Shown: positions 13,086-20,322 of the stretch, one piece after another
How positions within the stretch are numbered: the stretch's first letter is position 1
Layout of the letters: the number at the start of each line of letters is the position of its first letter
Virus record (IMG/VR): IMGVR_UViG_3300021959_004014
Span: 1-20,322 of that record
DNA length: 20,322 bases
Strand: one strand, 5' to 3'
Origin: a virus
Program-made: the position numbers and the translations under genes
Notes under the pieces: generated by a model
Databases searched by the model: none
Told to the model about the DNA's origin: nothing
What the model saw: the letters and a program-made list of their open reading frames with translations, nothing else

Positions 13086-13817
13086 ATGAATATATTATTA
13101 ACAGGACATAAAGGCTTTATTGGCAATAGGTTATTACAATACCTACAAGAAAAAGACCATACAATTATCACATTAGATAAGTTAACAGGACATGATATTA
13201 TGTCTTGTGATTTTCCTCACAATATAGAAACAGTAATACATTTAGCAGGTTTATCTGGCGTGAGAGATAGTTTAGATAAACCAACAGAATATTGGAAAAC
13301 AAATGTAATAGGAAGTCAGAGAATATTTGATTTCTATAAAACTAAAAGAGTTATCTATGCAAGTTCATCAACTGCTTATGAACCTTGGCAAAATCCATAT
13401 GCTATGAGTAAGTATGCTATGGAACAACTAGAACATCCTAATAGTCTAGGTATGAGATTTACAACTGTCTATGGACCTGGTGCCAGAGAAACAATGTTAA
13501 TACCTAAAATATTAAGGAATGACATACAATATTTAAATGTAAATCATATAAGAGATTTTATACATGTTGATGATGTCGTATCAGCAATAGATACCGTTTT
13601 ACATAATGATGTAAGAGGTGTTATAGATGTCGGTACATGCATATCTAATAAACTTGTTGATATTGCAGATTATTTTAAAATTGATTACGAAAGCAGGATT
13701 GCTGATGAAACTGAAAGATTGGACAATACGGCCAATACAGAAATACTAAATAGTCTTGGCTGGTATGCAAAAACAAATTTATATAATTATATAGAGGAGA
13801 ATAAAAATGTTCAATAA
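13086..13817 (+). CDS. NAD-dependent sugar epimerase/dehydratase (extended SDR), shortened
   Basis: 243 residues, cytoplasmic. Nucleotide-binding Rossmann start MNILLTGHKGFIG with G7-x2-G10-x2-G13; HLAGLSGVRDS near 55-65 is the usual second glycine/Asp region; ASSSTAY at 92-98 supplies the catalytic Ser/Thr; Tyr105 and Lys109 form the YxxxK pair (YAMSK); RFTTVYGPGA and RDFIHVDDVV are typical of GalE/dehydratase relatives acting on nucleotide sugars. Members usually have 300-350 residues. Here only about ten residues separate the Ser/Thr strand from the catalytic Tyr, against about 25 in GalE, and the C-terminal substrate domain is also short. Substrate unknown; a nucleotide-diphosphate sugar is the natural guess. 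It follows the structural genes after six bases without an obvious Shine-Dalgarno and overlaps the next gene by 11 bases. Confidence 0.85.
   Translation: MNILLTGHKGFIGNRLLQYLQEKDHTIITLDKLTGHDIMSCDFPHNIETVIHLAGLSGVRDSLDKPTEYWKTNVIGSQRIFDFYKTKRVIYASSSTAYEPWQNPYAMSKYAMEQLEHPNSLGMRFTTVYGPGARETMLIPKILRNDIQYLNVNHIRDFIHVDDVVSAIDTVLHNDVRGVIDVGTCISNKLVDIADYFKIDYESRIADETERLDNTANTEILNSLGWYAKTNLYNYIEENKNVQ
13794..13799 (+). promoter_or_regulatory. Ribosome binding site GAGGAG for the gene at 13807
   Basis: GAGGAG lies inside the 3' end of the epimerase gene, 7 bases before the ATG at 13807. It supports that overlapping start. Confidence 0.65.
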
Positions 13818-14292
13818 AGATAACTTCATAGAAGCTTCATTTATAGACAATGATAGAAAGAATATTGAAGTATTAACAAAGAGTGATGACGGTAAAAATT
13901 TAATACCTACAATTATACCGTATGACGAAAACAACCATATGTTCAAAGAGCTTATGGAGTTAATTACGATAGACAAATTACACGAAGACACACATAATAA
14001 GAAAAAAGAAGAAGGTAGATTATTTGAAGAGCAGGTGATGAGAATTGCCAAAGATAGTGGTATGCTATCTTCTATTGCTAAAGAAGAAGGCAATGATGAA
14101 TACTTTAAAAATATTCTTGACGCTATAGTAAAACAACAAGATAATGAAGACCATTTGTTTGCCTTGAAAATAGCTGCATTTGAAAACATAAAAAAAGTTA
14201 GTGAATCTGATAATGTAGAAGGTAAAAAGAAAATTCGACAAGCAAAAAATAAAATTGAATTTTTTAGAGCCGTCTTTGACATGATTGAGTAA
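13807..14292 (+). CDS. Conserved T4-like phage protein of unknown function
   Basis: 161 residues, highly charged and mostly helical. It begins MFNKDNFIEASFIDNDRKNI and continues with IPYDENNHMFKELMELITID, a Lys/Glu-rich segment (KKKEEGRLFEEQVMRIA) and a C-terminal RQAKNKIEFFRAVFDMIE. The overall pattern resembles a protein found near structural genes in marine T4-like phages, to which I cannot assign a function. It has a good ribosome site and overlaps the epimerase by 11 bases. It shows no sugar-enzyme motif, so it looks like a resident phage gene interleaved with the metabolic block rather than part of the pathway. No membrane segment or signal peptide. Confidence 0.65.
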   Translation: MFNKDNFIEASFIDNDRKNIEVLTKSDDGKNLIPTIIPYDENNHMFKELMELITIDKLHEDTHNKKKEEGRLFEEQVMRIAKDSGMLSSIAKEEGNDEYFKNILDAIVKQQDNEDHLFALKIAAFENIKKVSESDNVEGKKKIRQAKNKIEFFRAVFDMIE

Positions 14293-14297
14293 CATGA

Positions 14298-15158
14298 ATG
14301 AATATAGTATGTACAGGTAAACCTGGTGACGGATTATTAAGATATAGTTATGAGCATTGTTGTTATTTAAATAATCAAGGTGTAAAAAGTCGTGTTATTA
14401 TTATACCTCATCCTGATTTTACAAAAGATGATTACACAAAATCTCTTAAAGACCAATATAAGACATATGAAAATGTGGTGTTTGATGATTATACACCAGC
14501 CTCTAGTGAAATAACATTTGTTTTAGGTAGAAGTATGATTACTTTGCCATACCTAGACAGACACAAATACACAAAAGACCAACTGTTAACTCTACGATTA
14601 TTATTTAAGAATAACATTGTAGCAGTCTATTCAGAAAACCATCCTAAAGATTACCAATTAGCGTTAGAGTATTTTAAACCTAAAAAGGTTTATGACTTAT
14701 GCGACCATGATGTTTATCCAAACGGTGTCGGTATTCAGTATGAAAAAATAATTAACTTTGATGAATATAAACCTATTGTAAAAGATATACAATATAAACA
14801 TTTGTTTTTAGGTACAAATGAGATATATTACAAAGAGATTGAAAAACATATTGACAAATATCCAGACCATGGTATTGTTACATACAACAAAAAGTGGATT
14901 AATCCTAAATTAAATAATCTATTTGCACCTATTGAAAATATATTAGGTAAATTTGAAACATATGTTTATACAAAACCTAACTTTGACCCAGCGCCTAGAC
15001 TATTTGTAGAGTTTAAATGGTTAGGTAAAAATGTAGAGTATGTAAGAGATATGAATATAAAAGATGGTGGTCCTGTTTACTGGAATAGGCCTACGCCCAC
15101 GGAACAGATATATAAAAACAATATAAATATACTTGTAAGTTTAATAAAGAGTATATGA
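14298..15158 (+). CDS. Possible glycosyltransferase (GT-B-like), tentative
   Basis: 286 residues, starting 5 bases after the previous stop. A nearby ATG at 14294 is in another frame and closes after eight codons. The N-terminus MNIVCTGKPGDGLLRY has the glycine-rich first-strand look of GT-B enzymes. The C-terminal part, ETYVYTKPNFDPAPRLFVEF then KWLGKNVEYVRD, resembles the donor-binding region of that fold, where a Pro-rich stretch and an acidic residue contact the nucleotide sugar (the PAPRLFVEFKWLG stretch centres on ~235). No catalytic residue can be named. Its stop overlaps the next start (ATGA at 15155-15158). If a glycosyltransferase, it would attach the sugar made by the neighbouring enzymes. 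An unrelated function is quite possible. Confidence 0.4.
   Translation: MNIVCTGKPGDGLLRYSYEHCCYLNNQGVKSRVIIIPHPDFTKDDYTKSLKDQYKTYENVVFDDYTPASSEITFVLGRSMITLPYLDRHKYTKDQLLTLRLLFKNNIVAVYSENHPKDYQLALEYFKPKKVYDLCDHDVYPNGVGIQYEKIINFDEYKPIVKDIQYKHLFLGTNEIYYKEIEKHIDKYPDHGIVTYNKKWINPKLNNLFAPIENILGKFETYVYTKPNFDPAPRLFVEFKWLGKNVEYVRDMNIKDGGPVYWNRPTPTEQIYKNNINILVSLIKSI
15122..15129 (+). promoter_or_regulatory. T4-type late promoter box TATAAATA inside preceding gene
   Basis: An exact TATAAATA lies within the last codons of the 14298 gene, 25 bases before the ATG at 15155. The spacing matches the boxes at 1052 (23) and 3341 (24). As it is inside AT-rich coding sequence it could be chance; the conserved distance is the main argument for it. 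Confidence 0.5.
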
Positions 15159-15964
15159 TGAAGAAAAAATTAATAGTGAGTGGTTGTAGTTTTACTGATA
15201 AGAATTTTCAATCGTTGTCAGCACCAGATGTTGATTGTTCCTTTCCTAAATGGCCAGAGTTATTAGCCGAAAAATTAAATATGGATTGTATTAATTTAGG
15301 CGCTAATGGTGCCGGAAATAATTACATCTATAGCACATTACTAGAAGAAATTACAAGAACACCAAAAGATGAAATTGGTTTGGTATTAGCAGCTTGGTCA
15401 CAAGTACATAGAGAAGACTATGAAACTTTTGTTAAATTAACACCAGCTAAAATTAGTCATTCGGATAAATTTCATAAAAATATGATGTGGAGAAACAAAA
15501 GACTGGGTAGAAATGGTGATATATTTTATTGGATAAAAGACACACTTCGTCATTATATCTCACTTGAAAATTTGTGTAAAAGGTATAATTTATCATATAA
15601 ACAATTTCAAATGATATCACCTTTTCAAGGATATCTTAAAGGTTTATCTAAAACTGATTATGAAATTGTACAAAATTTAGATACTCCTAATTTTGAAAAA
15701 AATTATAAGTACGATAATGTTACAGATAAAGATTATATGAATTGTATTAATTTATTTTTAGAATATGAGAAACTTATAGACACTAAAAATTTTATAGGTT
15801 ATCCACCATCAAAAGGTTTCGGAGGACACACTATAGAAGATAAAACTCTTTTTTACAAAAACGGAGATAATAGAAACGATTTAATAATATCAAAATATGA
15901 TTTTCATCCAAATGGAAAAGGACATGAAAAAATAGCGGAGTTTATATATGACAGGTTGGGATAA
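15155..15964 (+). CDS. SGNH/GDSL-like hydrolase or acyltransferase
   Basis: 269 residues. The start overlaps the previous stop in ATGA; a second ATG follows directly at 15158, so the protein may be one residue shorter. Block I is SGCSFT with Ser12 as candidate nucleophile. INLGANGAGNNYIYS at 47-60 supplies conserved Gly/Asn residues of the later blocks. The C-terminal YDFHPNGKGH at 248-257 offers Asp249 and His251 in the catalytic Asp/His position, though as D-x-H rather than the usual D-x-x-H. The family includes esterases that remove, and acyltransferases that add, O-acyl groups on sugars, which suits the surrounding genes. The region after ~90 is rich in Lys, Asn and Phe and is not conserved to my eye. 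No signal peptide, so cytoplasmic. It overlaps the aminotransferase gene by 17 bases. Confidence 0.7.
   Translation: MMKKKLIVSGCSFTDKNFQSLSAPDVDCSFPKWPELLAEKLNMDCINLGANGAGNNYIYSTLLEEITRTPKDEIGLVLAAWSQVHREDYETFVKLTPAKISHSDKFHKNMMWRNKRLGRNGDIFYWIKDTLRHYISLENLCKRYNLSYKQFQMISPFQGYLKGLSKTDYEIVQNLDTPNFEKNYKYDNVTDKDYMNCINLFLEYEKLIDTKNFIGYPPSKGFGGHTIEDKTLFYKNGDNRNDLIISKYDFHPNGKGHEKIAEFIYDRLG
15937..15940 (+). promoter_or_regulatory. Ribosome binding site GGAG deciding the 15948 start
   Basis: GGAG within the SGNH gene ends 7 bases before the ATG at 15948. It supports the start that overlaps the SGNH gene by 17 bases rather than a later one. Confidence 0.6.
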
Positions 15965-17018
15965 AGATTACTTAGCAAACAAAGAAGAATACTTAGCTCT
16001 CTTTGATAGAGTTATGCAAAAGAAACAAGAAACCAATATCGAGTTTCTTGAAAAAAAATTATCAAAACGATTAGGTAGAAATGTTGTTGCCTGTGCTAAT
16101 GGTACAGACGCATTATATTTTGCCTTATTAAGTAGAGGTATAGGTCCAGGTGATGAGGTACTTGTATCCAATTTTTCATGGATATCAACAGCAAGTGTCA
16201 TAGCTATGACAGGTGCAACGCCTGTGTTTACAAGTATTGAGGCAATTTCTATGCATATGAATATATCTAGCATTAGAAAACTGTACGGTCCTAAAACGCC
16301 AAAAGAAGGATTTAAAAGTAAAGTAAAAGCATTAATATATCCTCACTTATTCGGCAACATGTCAGATACTACCAGAATCAAAAAATTCTGTCAAGCAAAA
16401 GATATTCTTTTTATAGAGGATGCTTGCCAAGCCCTAGGTTCTAGTTATAATGGTGTTGCTGCCGGTACGATAGGTGATATTAGTACATTAAGTTTTAACG
16501 ATAATAAAGTTATTGCCGGCATAGCTGGCGGTGGTGCAATTGTAACAGATGGTGATACAGAAATATTTAAGAAGTTAAGACAACATGGTAAACATGAAAT
16601 GTTAGGTTATAATTCTAAAATGTTATTGTTCAATGCTGAAGTTATTAATTACAGACTTGACAAATTAGATTGGTACATTGAGAAAAGACAAGCCGTTGCC
16701 AAACTATATGATGACGCATTAAAAGATGTGGTAACTGTACAAGATAATCCACCAGAATTAAATCATAACTATCACAAATATGTGGTAAGATTTAAAGATA
16801 AAGAAACAAGAGATAAAGTAAAAGAAAAGCTAGGTGCTACGGTACATTATGAAAGACCATTATCAGAATACCCTATGTGGAATAATATACCTCATAGAAA
16901 AGAAGATAAATGGATTAGTCAAGAAGTTTGTGATACTATTCTATCATTACCTATACACCCTTACATGACGAAGGAAGAAATTAACAAAGTTGTTAATACT
17001 ATATTAATATTGGTATGA
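15948..17018 (+). CDS. DegT/DnrJ/EryC1-family PLP-dependent sugar aminotransferase
   Basis: 356 residues, close to the usual ~370. This family transfers an amino group, normally from glutamate, to a keto-sugar nucleotide. Visible landmarks: ACANGTDAL with N51-G52-T53 for the PLP phosphate; GDEVLVSNFSWISTASVI (~73-90); FIEDACQALGSSYNG with Asp158, which pairs with the PLP nitrogen, and Gln161; GDISTLSFNDNK with Lys187 as the PLP-linked lysine, then a glycine run (IAGGGAIVTDG); GYNSKM near 223 and a KLDWYIEKRQAVAKLYDDAL helix. All expected catalytic residues are present, so it is probably active. The usual D/E-x-x-Q segment after GYNSRM is replaced by LLFNAEVINYR, so substrate contacts may differ. 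Cytoplasmic, soluble. Its stop overlaps the next start in ATGA at 17015-17018. The amino-sugar product is unknown. Confidence 0.9.
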   Translation: MTGWDKDYLANKEEYLALFDRVMQKKQETNIEFLEKKLSKRLGRNVVACANGTDALYFALLSRGIGPGDEVLVSNFSWISTASVIAMTGATPVFTSIEAISMHMNISSIRKLYGPKTPKEGFKSKVKALIYPHLFGNMSDTTRIKKFCQAKDILFIEDACQALGSSYNGVAAGTIGDISTLSFNDNKVIAGIAGGGAIVTDGDTEIFKKLRQHGKHEMLGYNSKMLLFNAEVINYRLDKLDWYIEKRQAVAKLYDDALKDVVTVQDNPPELNHNYHKYVVRFKDKETRDKVKEKLGATVHYERPLSEYPMWNNIPHRKEDKWISQEVCDTILSLPIHPYMTKEEINKVVNTILILV

Positions 17019-17302
17019 TAGAACATAATAAATCTTATTCAAAATTTTGGAAGGTAGATGACAACGGCAATATGGTTGATATTACTGATAGGTGTCCTAT
17101 TGTATTATGTCAAAACATGAAAGATTTGGTTGGCGATTATGAGATTGACCATAACTTAATAACAAAAGAAACGGAAGATATTTACGATTACATTATAGAA
17201 AAGTTATATACTATGCCAAATTACCTTGAAGAAACATCTTTCAAATCACCAGATAAATTGAAGATTGCTTTTACTAAACTATTTTTTAAACTGATACAAT
17301 GA
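17015..17302 (+). CDS. Small protein of unknown function within the metabolic operon
   Basis: 95 residues, joined to both neighbours by ATGA overlaps (17015-17018 and 17299-17302), which strongly supports it as a real gene. It begins MIEHNKSYSKFWKVDDNGNM and ends in a helical LKIAFTKLFFKLIQ. One stretch, DRCPIVLCQN, has two cysteines five residues apart, but I see no metal motif around them. I do not recognise the family. By position it might assist the aminotransferase before it or the radical SAM enzyme after it; nothing in the sequence proves this. Confidence 0.6.
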   Translation: MIEHNKSYSKFWKVDDNGNMVDITDRCPIVLCQNMKDLVGDYEIDHNLITKETEDIYDYIIEKLYTMPNYLEETSFKSPDKLKIAFTKLFFKLIQ

Positions 17303-18120
17303 AAACATTACAAGAAATACAACAAAATTATTTAGCGATAGATTTCTTTCTATCTATGTCGTGTAATAAGAATTGTCATTACTGTACAAGTTATACTTTA
17401 GAAATGAGAAACTTAACAGTTGATATGGATTTCTTGAAACAAACATTACACTATTTAAGAAACTACAAAATAAGAGTATGTTTACTAGGTGGTGAACCAG
17501 GCCTTATTAAAAATTTAAGAGAAGTTATTGATGAAGTTAAAAAGAATCCAAACCATGTCTGTTCCGTTTTGTCAAACTCATTTGTTCGTAAGAGATATCC
17601 AGAGATATTAGAAGACAAAGATATTCTATATGTTGAACATAACATATTAGATTGGTATGAAAACGAAGTTACAAAACTAGGTAACTTTGATTATATACCA
17701 GAGAATGATTTTAATAATTATAATGTTGTTGTACGAACACCAAACTTCTACAAATACAAAGACAAATATCCAGAAGTGATGAACAAGTTAGACCACAAGA
17801 ATACAATGTGGAAAGCATTTAACGGCAGGTCACCAGAGTTTACAGATGTTATTCAGGCTGCTGAAATTGACCGTAAAATGTGTGCTTCTTTTCCGATGGT
17901 GCCTGTTATTGACTTTGAAAAAAGACATATTGTACATTGCAGTAAGAAGTTTGCTAATAATAAAGAATTGTCAAAAACCTTTGACCTAACGCAGGAGAAC
18001 ATAGATAAGATGATGAACTTCAGATTGTTCAAGTATGAGAATTATTGCAAAACCTGTACTGAATGGGTGCAACCAAAGGGTCATTTTCCAATGAGCAAGT
18101 ATGGGAATCTATTAGAATGA
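17299..18120 (+). CDS. Radical SAM enzyme with probable auxiliary iron-sulfur site
   Basis: 273 residues. Cys22-x3-Cys26-x2-Cys29 (CNKNCHYC) is the canonical radical SAM cluster motif, and LLGGEPGL at 62-69 is the usual GGEP SAM-binding motif. Four further cysteines in the C-terminal part (Cys195, Cys214 and the Cys250-x2-Cys253 pair in YCKTCTEW) could hold an auxiliary Fe-S cluster of twitch/SPASM type. These enzymes use a 5'-deoxyadenosyl radical for otherwise difficult steps such as epimerisation, dehydration or C-C and C-S bond formation. The chain is shorter than typical SPASM proteins. It begins in an ATGA overlap without a clear Shine-Dalgarno and ends in one. The substrate is unknown; operon context suggests a sugar, but peptide or base modification cannot be excluded. 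Confidence 0.85.
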   Translation: MKTLQEIQQNYLAIDFFLSMSCNKNCHYCTSYTLEMRNLTVDMDFLKQTLHYLRNYKIRVCLLGGEPGLIKNLREVIDEVKKNPNHVCSVLSNSFVRKRYPEILEDKDILYVEHNILDWYENEVTKLGNFDYIPENDFNNYNVVVRTPNFYKYKDKYPEVMNKLDHKNTMWKAFNGRSPEFTDVIQAAEIDRKMCASFPMVPVIDFEKRHIVHCSKKFANNKELSKTFDLTQENIDKMMNFRLFKYENYCKTCTEWVQPKGHFPMSKYGNLLE

Positions 18121-19601
18121 GAAAGATATTCGCTGTTGCCTTAAATCTACACGACCATAATACATATGATGGTGTATGGCACAATCAACGAGAAAGAGAA
18201 ACTAGATTTAAACATAATCTACCTTATCATGCTGAAGCATATGCTCATCAATCAGACATATTAAACCCAGCTGATTATCGTTTAAATGATGATTTTGTAA
18301 AAGAGTATTTTAAAAAGGCAGATGATATTCTAGCATTCACTTACACTTATGGTGGTATTAGAATGTGTAGAGATTTATTGCCAAAAGATGTATTTGATTA
18401 TGAACCAAAAAGTCTATGGGATTTTTATTTAAAAGATAACATCTACTATATCGACCATCATCAATCTCATGCTACATACGCCTTTCTAAATTCTGGTTTT
18501 GATAAGTCAGATATTCTGGCCATTGATGGTATAGGTTCAAAATATAGATGTGTGTTTTTTGATAAAGAACAAAAGATGATAGACTTATCAGACAAGTTAC
18601 CGATAGGTTGGTTATGGAATCATATGTCAAATCTCACAGGTTTTGGAACATTAGGTGCAAGTAAACTTATGGGTAAGGTAGGTTATGGTCAACATAGTGA
18701 TTACTATTATAACTTGTTTGAAATAATATTAGACGGACCTATTACAGAAAAGAAACAAGAAAAGTTTAAACATATCAGACTAGATAATATTAATGATTTA
18801 GCTTATACACTACAAGAATTTACTATTGATAAAATAAAAGAGTTTGTTTATCCTTTAAAGTCTTGTGATAATTTATGTATTGCTGGTGGTGTTGCATATA
18901 ACGGATATATGAATGAAGAGTTTACTAAACATTATCAAAATGTATTTTTACCACCTGCTGTTGGTGATGAAGGACAAGCCATTGGTGCCTATCAGCATGC
19001 TGATTATACTCTAAACAACAATATACATGTATCAGAAACATTTGCTGGTAAAGAATATGATTACACAGGAGATAAAAGAGTAAACTATAAAGAAGTAGCA
19101 CAAGCAATTGCTGATGGCAAGATTGTTGGTTGGTTTCAAGGTAAATCAGAAAGTGGCAATCGTGCATTAGGTAATAGAAGTATATTAGCAGACCCTAGAA
19201 ATCCTAATATAAAAGATATTATTAATCACACTATAAAAATGAGAGAAGACTTTAGGCCATTTGCACCAGTTGTATTAGAAGAACATTATAAAGAATACTT
19301 TGATACAAATAGTCCTAGTCCTTATATGAGTAGAATATGTAAAGTTAAATCTGATAAAGTGCCAGGTATAACTCATGTTGATAATACAGCAAGAATACAA
19401 ACTGTTAATAAAAATTTTAATGGTAAGTTGTATAATTTAATTAATGAGTTTTATAAAATTACAGGCATACCTATGTTATTAAATACAAGTTTTAATTGTC
19501 AAGAACCTATTGTAGAAACACCACAACAGGCATTAAGAACATTTAAAAAAACATCATTAGATATGTTAGTTATTAACGATTGGATAATTGTAAAGGAATA
19601 A
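18117..19601 (+). CDS. NodU/CmcH-type O-carbamoyltransferase
   Basis: 494 residues from the ATG at 18117. An in-frame ATG at 18063 would add 18 residues lying within the radical SAM gene; I prefer 18117 because it makes the ATGA overlap used throughout this operon and because MRKIFAVALNLHDHNTYDG aligns with the family N-terminus. The family transfers the carbamoyl group of carbamoyl phosphate, via carbamoyl-AMP, to hydroxyls of sugars or antibiotics. Landmarks: HHQSH with His114, His115 and His118 for the metal/nucleotide site, LAIDGIG (~137-143), a glycine-rich AGGVAYN near 257, FQGKSESGNRALGNRSIL with R349-A350-L351-G352-N353-R354, FRPFAPVVLEEH (~379-390), and LNTSFNCQEPIV from N456. It is somewhat shorter than common members (~550-600) but appears intact. 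Cytoplasmic. Acceptor unknown. Confidence 0.9.
   Translation: MRKIFAVALNLHDHNTYDGVWHNQRERETRFKHNLPYHAEAYAHQSDILNPADYRLNDDFVKEYFKKADDILAFTYTYGGIRMCRDLLPKDVFDYEPKSLWDFYLKDNIYYIDHHQSHATYAFLNSGFDKSDILAIDGIGSKYRCVFFDKEQKMIDLSDKLPIGWLWNHMSNLTGFGTLGASKLMGKVGYGQHSDYYYNLFEIILDGPITEKKQEKFKHIRLDNINDLAYTLQEFTIDKIKEFVYPLKSCDNLCIAGGVAYNGYMNEEFTKHYQNVFLPPAVGDEGQAIGAYQHADYTLNNNIHVSETFAGKEYDYTGDKRVNYKEVAQAIADGKIVGWFQGKSESGNRALGNRSILADPRNPNIKDIINHTIKMREDFRPFAPVVLEEHYKEYFDTNSPSPYMSRICKVKSDKVPGITHVDNTARIQTVNKNFNGKLYNLINEFYKITGIPMLLNTSFNCQEPIVETPQQALRTFKKTSLDMLVINDWIIVKE
19592..19598 (+). promoter_or_regulatory. Ribosome binding site AAAGGAA for the gene at 19603
   Basis: AAAGGAA at the end of the carbamoyltransferase gene ends 4 bases before the ATG at 19603, supporting this start one base after the preceding stop. 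Confidence 0.55.
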
Positions 19602-19602
19602 T

Positions 19603-20280
19603 ATGAACACACTAGATTTATTGTGTAAAAGAAAACATGTTGTCAAATATAAAGATAAACAAATAGCAAATGAAGTTTTAGATATTCTATTAGAAAAATC
19701 ATGGAAAGCAACATCATCAAAAAATAACTTCATGGCTTATAAAATTAATGTATTAGATAATACTAAAACTGTTGAAAAAGAATTAGTATGGCAAAAACTT
19801 GTTGCTAAACAATCTGAAAGTGAAAATAAAGCAAAAGAAGATGGTCAAGGAGTTGGATTTTCTGGAAAACCTAATCAGTATTATAATCATATAAAAAACA
19901 ATTCTCATTTATTAGTTATTACATCAAGAGTATGTGAACCAAATGATTTTGTAAAACAGGCAATAACGGAAGGCCATGTAGCACATGAGATGTATCCTGA
20001 ATTTGTTGAAGACATAGTTGACAATACAGCTATTGAAGTAGGAATGTTTATAAGCCATTTAACTCTATTTTGCATGGAAGAAAATATAGATGTTTCTTAT
20101 ACAGCTTGTTTTCCTAGAGATATCAATATGTGGAAGAATCTTCCTTTTGTTGACCAGAGACCTATCTTATTAATGTCTTTAGGTTACGGTGATTATTACA
20201 GATATCAAAACCTTGAGAAAAATGGAATGACTAAAAAAGATTATAAACCAAAATTAGAAACAATTGTAAATTGGGAATAA
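19603..20280 (+). CDS. Nitroreductase-like flavoprotein
   Basis: 225 residues, a usual length for the family, which forms FMN-binding homodimers reducing or oxidising varied substrates with NAD(P)H. Landmarks: LLCKRKHVVKYKDKQI at 6-21 corresponds to the RRSxRxF FMN-phosphate site; ATSSKNNFMAYKINVL at 36-51 matches the PSxxNxQPWxF region; TAIEVGMFISHLTLFCMEEN (~145-164) is the central helix preceding a small GL-like turn (IDVSYTACF); RPILLMSLGYGDYY (~186-199) is the terminal strand with the LGYG motif. Several usual residues are altered (K-H instead of R-S, no QPW), so cofactor and substrate may differ. It lies one base after the carbamoyltransferase stop with a good ribosome site, and three bases before a probable paralog. 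Substrate unknown. Confidence 0.78.
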   Translation: MNTLDLLCKRKHVVKYKDKQIANEVLDILLEKSWKATSSKNNFMAYKINVLDNTKTVEKELVWQKLVAKQSESENKAKEDGQGVGFSGKPNQYYNHIKNNSHLLVITSRVCEPNDFVKQAITEGHVAHEMYPEFVEDIVDNTAIEVGMFISHLTLFCMEENIDVSYTACFPRDINMWKNLPFVDQRPILLMSLGYGDYYRYQNLEKNGMTKKDYKPKLETIVNWE

Positions 20281-20283
20281 AAA

Positions 20284-20322
20284 ATGAAACACTTTGACTT
20301 ATTAGAAACAAAAAGAAAACAT
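20284..20322 (+). CDS. Start of a second nitroreductase-like gene (3' end outside window)
   Basis: Only 13 codons are visible: MKHFDLLETKRKH, beginning three bases after the previous stop. They resemble the first residues of the gene before it, where LDLLCKRKH becomes FDLLETKRKH with one extra residue. This suggests a tandem paralog, so the operon would carry two related flavoproteins and continue beyond the window. Certainty is limited by the short length. Confidence 0.5.
   Translation, partial: MKHFDLLETKRKH

Follow-up and report, generated by a model that had tools for sequence, protein, structure and literature searches.

The host recognition cluster of pelagimyophages was named in 2020 (Zaragoza-Solas, PMC7029224), and that article mentions radical S-adenosylmethionine (SAM) cassettes and interprets the GT8 enzymes found there as modifying the O-chain against co-infection. 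Here we analysed the IMG/VR record IMGVR_UViG_3300021959_004014, whose entire 20,322 bases are referred to as the window, and focus on a block of genes encoding a radical SAM enzyme, a NodU/TobZ-type O-carbamoyltransferase (CarbT), a DegT-type aminotransferase and several companions. The block occupies positions 14298-20322, continues beyond the contig end and lies downstream of baseplate and fibre genes. The phage is a T4-like pelagimyophage. Pelagibacter phage Mosig EXVC030M (Kyanoviridae), which infects HTCC1062, is its nearest isolate and the only isolate with the gene set. SAR11 bacteria are the most abundant in the ocean and are shaped by their phages. Annotation was based on Pfam, NCBIfam and PDB profile or fold searches, AlphaFold2 models, Foldseek and VIA.

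A conserved gene unit carried by phages

Viral contigs were scanned with the radical SAM enzyme and the best 80 of 156 relatives were used, unit counts being taken over distinct arrangements or loci in which the fetched stretch has room. In these, a DegT gene adjoins the radical SAM gene in 65 of 65 loci and a carbamoyltransferase accompanies it in 58 of 58. Circularity was avoided by reverse scans from other genes: starting from CarbT, the radical SAM and DegT genes were each recovered in 34 of 35 loci, and starting from the SGNH gene, each in 40 of 40. Because the scans share contigs and retain the best 80, these counts apply to this branch and not to all phages. The gene set is a conserved unit, as the first-pass annotation had supposed, while the opposite reading that it had named, of genes scattered among relatives, is rejected by their co-occurrence in both forward and reverse scans. 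The sole exceptions are SGNH and a separate radical SAM family, rS2, which occur away from the block (L192-L199, L233-L235). Among 50,697 phage records, Mosig alone has the radical SAM enzyme, the first block gene g3, SGNH and the nitroreductase at the thresholds used. Distance matrices of DegT and g3 correlate with that of the radical SAM enzyme (r=0.53 and 0.51). The ratio of nonsynonymous to synonymous substitution (dN/dS), rough because synonymous sites are near saturation, is lowest in the radical SAM gene (0.10), followed by GTc (0.14) and CarbT (0.15), with 0.33 and 0.46 in two fibre genes.

Elsewhere, in other marine myoviruses, block-type radical SAM and SGNH genes stand singly amid structural genes (L235:2112-4312, L199:3750-7834). 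The block of some relatives also includes a PP-loop ATPase resembling ThiI, QueC or NAD synthase (L016:3604-4437, L056:8916-9758), and in HTVC008M a gene annotated as NAD synthetase adjoins the carbamoyltransferase.

Among the sampled genomes, the radical SAM gene is specific to phages. In 297 Pelagibacteraceae genomes, no full-length copy was found except one on a phage-like contig, and 398 genomes of the phylum yielded no full-length match beyond that same contig, in a pattern-based scan that can miss distant relatives. A bacterial source was considered and rejected, the three matches on genome contigs all having phage gene order and two carrying fibre genes. These contigs (L084, L085 and L086), from metagenome-assembled genomes of Pelagibacter, Rhodobiaceae and Gammaproteobacteria in a species-genome collection, show the gene order of the phage block and, for the same reasons, are very likely phage contamination. 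In the host comparison, distant carbamoyltransferases were present in 112 of 196 other genomes, with scores of at most 242 bits vs 1034 in the phage branch. On this comparison, carbamoylation is a theme of the host, and the radical step is the contribution of the phage.

The block is a cassette able to face either way, being co-directional with the fibre, short-chain dehydrogenase/reductase (SDR) and 161-amino acid genes in 14 arrangements (the window type included) and convergent with them in 73. Since the SDR gene stays with the fibres when the block inverts, it and the 161-amino acid gene belong to the fibre side; the membership in the unit that had been assumed for the SDR epimerase/dehydratase is therefore dropped. 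The SDR protein is also short, with 243 amino acids (238-250 in relatives) vs about 310-350 for a full-length extended SDR, and reached no curated NCBIfam cut-off. Its TGxxGxxG and YxxxK motifs are kept (G7, G10, G13, Y105 and K109 at >=95% in 25 aligned members). The 161-amino acid protein has a match only in Mosig among the phage records.

Enzymes of the block

The radical SAM enzyme was compared across 103 unique sequences with 60-100% identity to the window protein. Exactly seven of the nine cysteines of the window protein are invariant, namely C22/C26/C29 of the core CxxxCxxC motif and C195/C214/C250/C253, while the other two vary; the GGEP motif (G64-P67) is likewise invariant. The second group of cysteines is, judged by its ligand pattern, a predicted four-cysteine auxiliary cluster site. 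A single auxiliary cluster has four cysteine ligands in BtrN, which oxidises an aminocyclitol alcohol, and three in MoaA (PMC9012708). Fold matches with Z of 8 to 9.6, values too similar to order, include SuiB, BtrN, BlsE, viperins, SpeY, DesII and anSME; the BtrN match (Z 9.1, 187 residues, root-mean-square deviation 4.2) is level with SuiB, a viperin-like protein and BlsE, in a model with a mean predicted local distance difference test (pLDDT) score of 64.5. Sequence similarity to BtrN is undetectable and any likeness lies in the fold only. DesII-like deamination was also considered, and the four-cysteine auxiliary site led us to place it after BtrN-like oxidation.

Many relatives outside the window contain a second, split radical SAM enzyme, with a core open reading frame (ORF) of ~210 amino acids and a separate SPASM ORF of ~110-150 amino acids (L003:5171-6165, L082:22426-23392, plus 50 loci). 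Of 56 cores, 53 have a SPASM ORF as neighbour, 36 in one order and 17 in the other, never in the same frame, and fused versions of 321-350 amino acids occur in L032, L033 and L036.

In CarbT, whose PDB relatives are TobZ, GdmN and a novobiocin enzyme, H114, H118, D137, D284 and R349 are invariant in 21 sequences, with metal and ATP roles assigned by alignment to TobZ. In addition, W339, G352 and R354, corresponding to W408, G421 and R423 of TobZ, are kept in 21 of 21. The PDB matches of DegT are sugar and cyclitol aminotransferases, and K187 (the pyridoxal phosphate (PLP) lysine), D158 and Q161 are conserved at >=98% in 71 sequences. The aminotransferase (15948-17302) is encoded by two genes (356 + 95 amino acids) here and in some other phages, and by one protein of 400-424 amino acids in most relatives.

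The g3 product, listed in the first-pass annotation as a possible glycosyltransferase, has no match in Pfam or in a PDB sequence search. Its AlphaFold2 model (pLDDT 92.6) has a GT-B fold, with BshA (3mbo, Z 15.7, 248 residues) and PimA (2gej, Z 15.4) as matches, and Foldseek and VIA place it with GT4-type glycosyltransferases; on the strength of this model, g3 is taken to be a GT-B-fold glycosyltransferase. For SGNH, S12, D249 and P252 are invariant and H251 nearly so in 29 sequences, so that the block I Ser and block V Asp/His are present; at the expected place of block III, there is no invariant Asn and W81 and R86 are invariant instead. The SGNH/GDSL Pfam match of the window protein is weak (E=0.005), with PF13472 matched by 12 of 29 members. 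The nitroreductase of the window falls under the cut-off when taken alone (E=0.0015), whereas its family is firm, with PF00881 in 16 of 29 members (E<=0.01), and is assigned by fold match to the flavin mononucleotide nitroreductase superfamily, with a predicted flavin role. Loss of catalytic residues, which had been named as a refutation of the whole scheme, was not observed in the alignments: the radical SAM cysteines, the CarbT metal and ATP residues, DegT K187, SGNH S12/D249 and the SDR motifs are intact.

The genes named by the first-pass annotation are present and co-directional according to ORFs and Pfam (Table 1). Within the block, adjacent genes either share 4 to 17 bases or stand 1 to 5 bases apart, the arrangement of one translationally coupled operon. 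Two genes were absent from the earlier list (161 amino acids, 13807-14292; 95 amino acids, 17015-17302), and the CarbT start was corrected to 18117, in an ATGA overlap with the radical SAM stop. The "one or two" nitroreductase-like proteins are two, the second being intact (PF00881 E=7e-7) in L002, a longer contig that is 100% identical over the part in common with the window. L002 further encodes a methyltransferase-like protein, a GT8 relative, a nitroreductase of family NTR2 and two proteins resembling DxD glycosyltransferases (judged by eye). The upstream region encodes baseplate components of T4 type (gp8, E=1e-20; gp9/10-like; baseplate wedge) together with fibres and a VrlC-like protein. 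An Rfam search gave no match, and the T4-late-type promoter TATAAATA gave no signal (4 matches vs 4.3 expected).

Table 1. Genes of the block and the adjoining fibre side, in window coordinates.
Feature	Position	Strand	Basis or remark
SDR nucleotide-sugar epimerase/dehydratase, short	13086..13817	+	243 amino acids; PF01370 E=1.5e-30
161-amino acid protein of unknown function	13807..14292	+	no Pfam match; always beside SDR/fibre
g3, predicted GT-B-fold glycosyltransferase, first block gene in window orientation	14298..15158	+	AlphaFold2 and fold matches
SGNH/GDSL-type hydrolase or acyltransferase	15155..15964	+	conserved residues; PF13472 in family members
DegT/DnrJ/EryC1/StrS PLP sugar aminotransferase	15948..17018	+	PF01041 E=6e-72
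DegT C-terminal piece, separate 95-amino acid gene	17015..17302	+	clusters with tail of 400-424-amino acid DegT proteins
Radical SAM enzyme, predicted four-cysteine twitch-type auxiliary site	17299..18120	+	PF04055 E=5e-8; invariant cysteines
NodU/TobZ-type O-carbamoyltransferase (CarbT)	18117..19601	+	PF16861 E=6e-67; PF02543 E=3e-18
Nitroreductase-like flavoprotein	19603..20280	+	profile match 3gfa E=1.8e-6; PF00881 across family
Second nitroreductase-like gene, start only (contig end)	20284..20322	+	complete in L002 12986-13672

Proposed function and competing explanations

We propose, with a probability of roughly one half (about 0.52), that the block tailors a sugar and assembles a glycan, most likely on the cell surface of the SAR11 host during infection, altering what competing phages can bind. 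Using its predicted four-cysteine auxiliary cluster, the radical SAM enzyme would convert a hydroxyl group on a sugar or cyclitol into a ketone, in the manner of BtrN and SpeY; DegT would then aminate the ketone, like BtrS, and CarbT would attach a carbamoyl ester, like TobZ. SGNH and the nitroreductase may attach or adjust further groups, before the GT-B, GT8 and DxD-type enzymes move the sugar onto its acceptor, for which the surface glycan of the host is the most likely candidate. That the window enzymes carry out these steps in this order is what we infer by analogy. In support of this proposal, the block falls in the interval from VrlC to the neck genes, where the published host recognition cluster is also found. 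The sugar-modification function suggested by the first-pass annotation thus stands in part, favoured by the unit, the intact residues, the amino, carbamoyl, radical and flavin chemistry and the location at host recognition genes, and amended by removal of the SDR gene.

Several observations weigh against this proposal. Both the substrate and the product of the block are ones that we infer, and the confidence of the radical SAM model is modest (pLDDT 64.5). Because its fold matches include the peptide-acting SuiB and anSME and the nucleotide-acting viperin, sugar dehydrogenation is one option among several. The window has no normal-length 4,6-dehydratase; the source of a keto-sugar would have to be the host or the radical SAM step. 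Furthermore, the block is fixed in content and mosaic in sequence, radical SAM and CarbT distances being only weakly correlated (r=0.13, p=0.056). Finally, the acceptor could be the virion fibres, the same enzymes then building a glycan on the tail fibres or virion of the phage itself for protection or for tuning receptor binding. The block does stand beside fibre genes in relatives reaching that far, and CarbT distances track fibre distances (r=0.66 with FIB2), but adjacency to the fibre side is general for the island, no glycosylation-site mark was found in the fibres and the published reading of the island glycosyltransferases (PMC7029224) is a change in the host O-chain. We regard a virion acceptor as doubtful.

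It appears unlikely that the radical SAM enzyme and nitroreductase modify a protein or peptide, in the manner of ribosomally synthesized and post-translationally modified peptides, with the sugar genes as passengers. SuiB and anSME are among the best structural matches and peptides are the substrates of many SPASM/twitch relatives (PMC9012708); however, no short gene conserved in the manner of a precursor was observed, the DegT tail is the sole small ORF next to the radical SAM gene in the window, and DegT and CarbT accompany the radical SAM gene without exception where there is room. The first-pass annotation had also offered a nucleobase role; on this reading, the block would equip phage DNA with a hypermodified base bearing carbamoyl and glycosyl groups. 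A phage carbamoyltransferase that makes 5-carbamoyloxymethylcytosine is proven (PMC8670742) and the GT-B matches of g3 include T4 DNA alpha-glucosyltransferase, yet in the proven DNA enzyme I, C and T align with the W, G and R of TobZ and of the CarbT family of the block, at the positions (TobZ 408, 421 and 423) singled out by PMC8670742. PF00303 (thymidylate synthase/dCMP hydroxymethylase) is absent from three relatives of 129-171 kb, contigs that may be incomplete, in a search whose control was positive in 9 of 14 genomes, and only a flavin-dependent thymidylate synthase is annotated in the Mosig portions examined. In PMC8670742, moreover, carbamoyltransferases adjoining glycosyltransferases came from unmodified contigs. 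With the W/G/R residues kept and thymidylate synthase-family partner genes not found, we consider this role very unlikely. Least probable of all is that the block is ordinary lipopolysaccharide (LPS)-gene cargo, variable filler without specific function: "stuffer DNA" was raised for cyanophage LPS clusters (Sullivan 2010, PMC3037559) and PMC7029224 terms the island hypervariable, whereas dN/dS values of 0.10-0.15 for the radical SAM and CarbT genes indicate purifying selection that contradicts filler, with all catalytic residues kept and gene content fixed.

Returning to the tailoring of a surface sugar, a bolder version is put forward only tentatively: a lytic SAR11 phage might carry its own antibiotic-style line (twitch radical SAM oxidation, PLP transamination, TobZ-type O-carbamoylation and flavin redox), with a radical step absent from the host, and add a novel carbamoylated amino sugar to the cell that it infects, many relatives adding the split core/SPASM radical SAM enzyme.

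Comparison with known systems

The homologous block of Mosig (MT647606, genes 82-94) encodes radical SAM, CarbT and DegT proteins that are 90%, 83% and 70% identical to those of the window. On the Mosig map, the neck lies at 37983-39614, the block at 61-71 kb and VrlC at 74619-80756, and the window has the same VrlC and fibre families. Mosig differs in that the block is inverted relative to the fibre genes, DegT is fused, a split radical SAM/SPASM pair is added and one nitroreductase lies upstream. Its radical SAM genes are annotated as molybdenum cofactor enzymes; the same annotation on g3 is unsupported, because the g3 model has a GT-B fold. The isolate pair Mosig/HTCC1062 makes the proposal testable.

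Like the block, the LPS clusters of T4-like cyanophages (P-SSM2, S-SSM7; PMC3037559) combine carbamoyltransferases with LPS-type genes in marine T4-like phages, but their carbamoyltransferases are ~28-36% identical and this radical SAM enzyme is lacking there. The 5-hydroxymethylcytosine carbamoyltransferase found by MetaGPA (PMC8670742) is also phage-encoded and of the same superfamily, but has replaced the residues equivalent to TobZ W408/G421/R423, which the block keeps without a dCMP hydroxymethylase partner having been found. Butirosin/tobramycin-type aminocyclitol tailoring (BtrN and BtrS; TobZ) shares the DegT aminotransferase, the TobZ-type carbamoyltransferase and a radical SAM enzyme that in the block is predicted to be of twitch type; in contrast, the block is phage-encoded, no cyclitol synthase was found and any similarity to BtrN is in fold alone. 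If the proposal is true, viruses would be remodelling a cell surface by radical and carbamoyl reactions familiar from aminoglycoside antibiotics.

The host recognition cluster has in common with the block the phage group, the place from VrlC to neck, glycosyltransferases including GT8 and radical SAM cassettes. In the passages of PMC7029224 consulted, it is described as hypervariable, and the fixed g3-SGNH-DegT-radical SAM-CarbT core, its residues and the phage-only radical SAM gene are not described. A pathway that is fixed, strongly selected and phage-only inside a "hypervariable" island points to a specific job in infection. A literature search, with subscription papers outside its scope, found no publication describing this exact core. 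The island itself has been known since 2020, and to it the present analysis adds a fixed core, evidence at the level of individual residues, a residue comparison that speaks against DNA modification and a radical SAM enzyme confined to phages among the genomes sampled.

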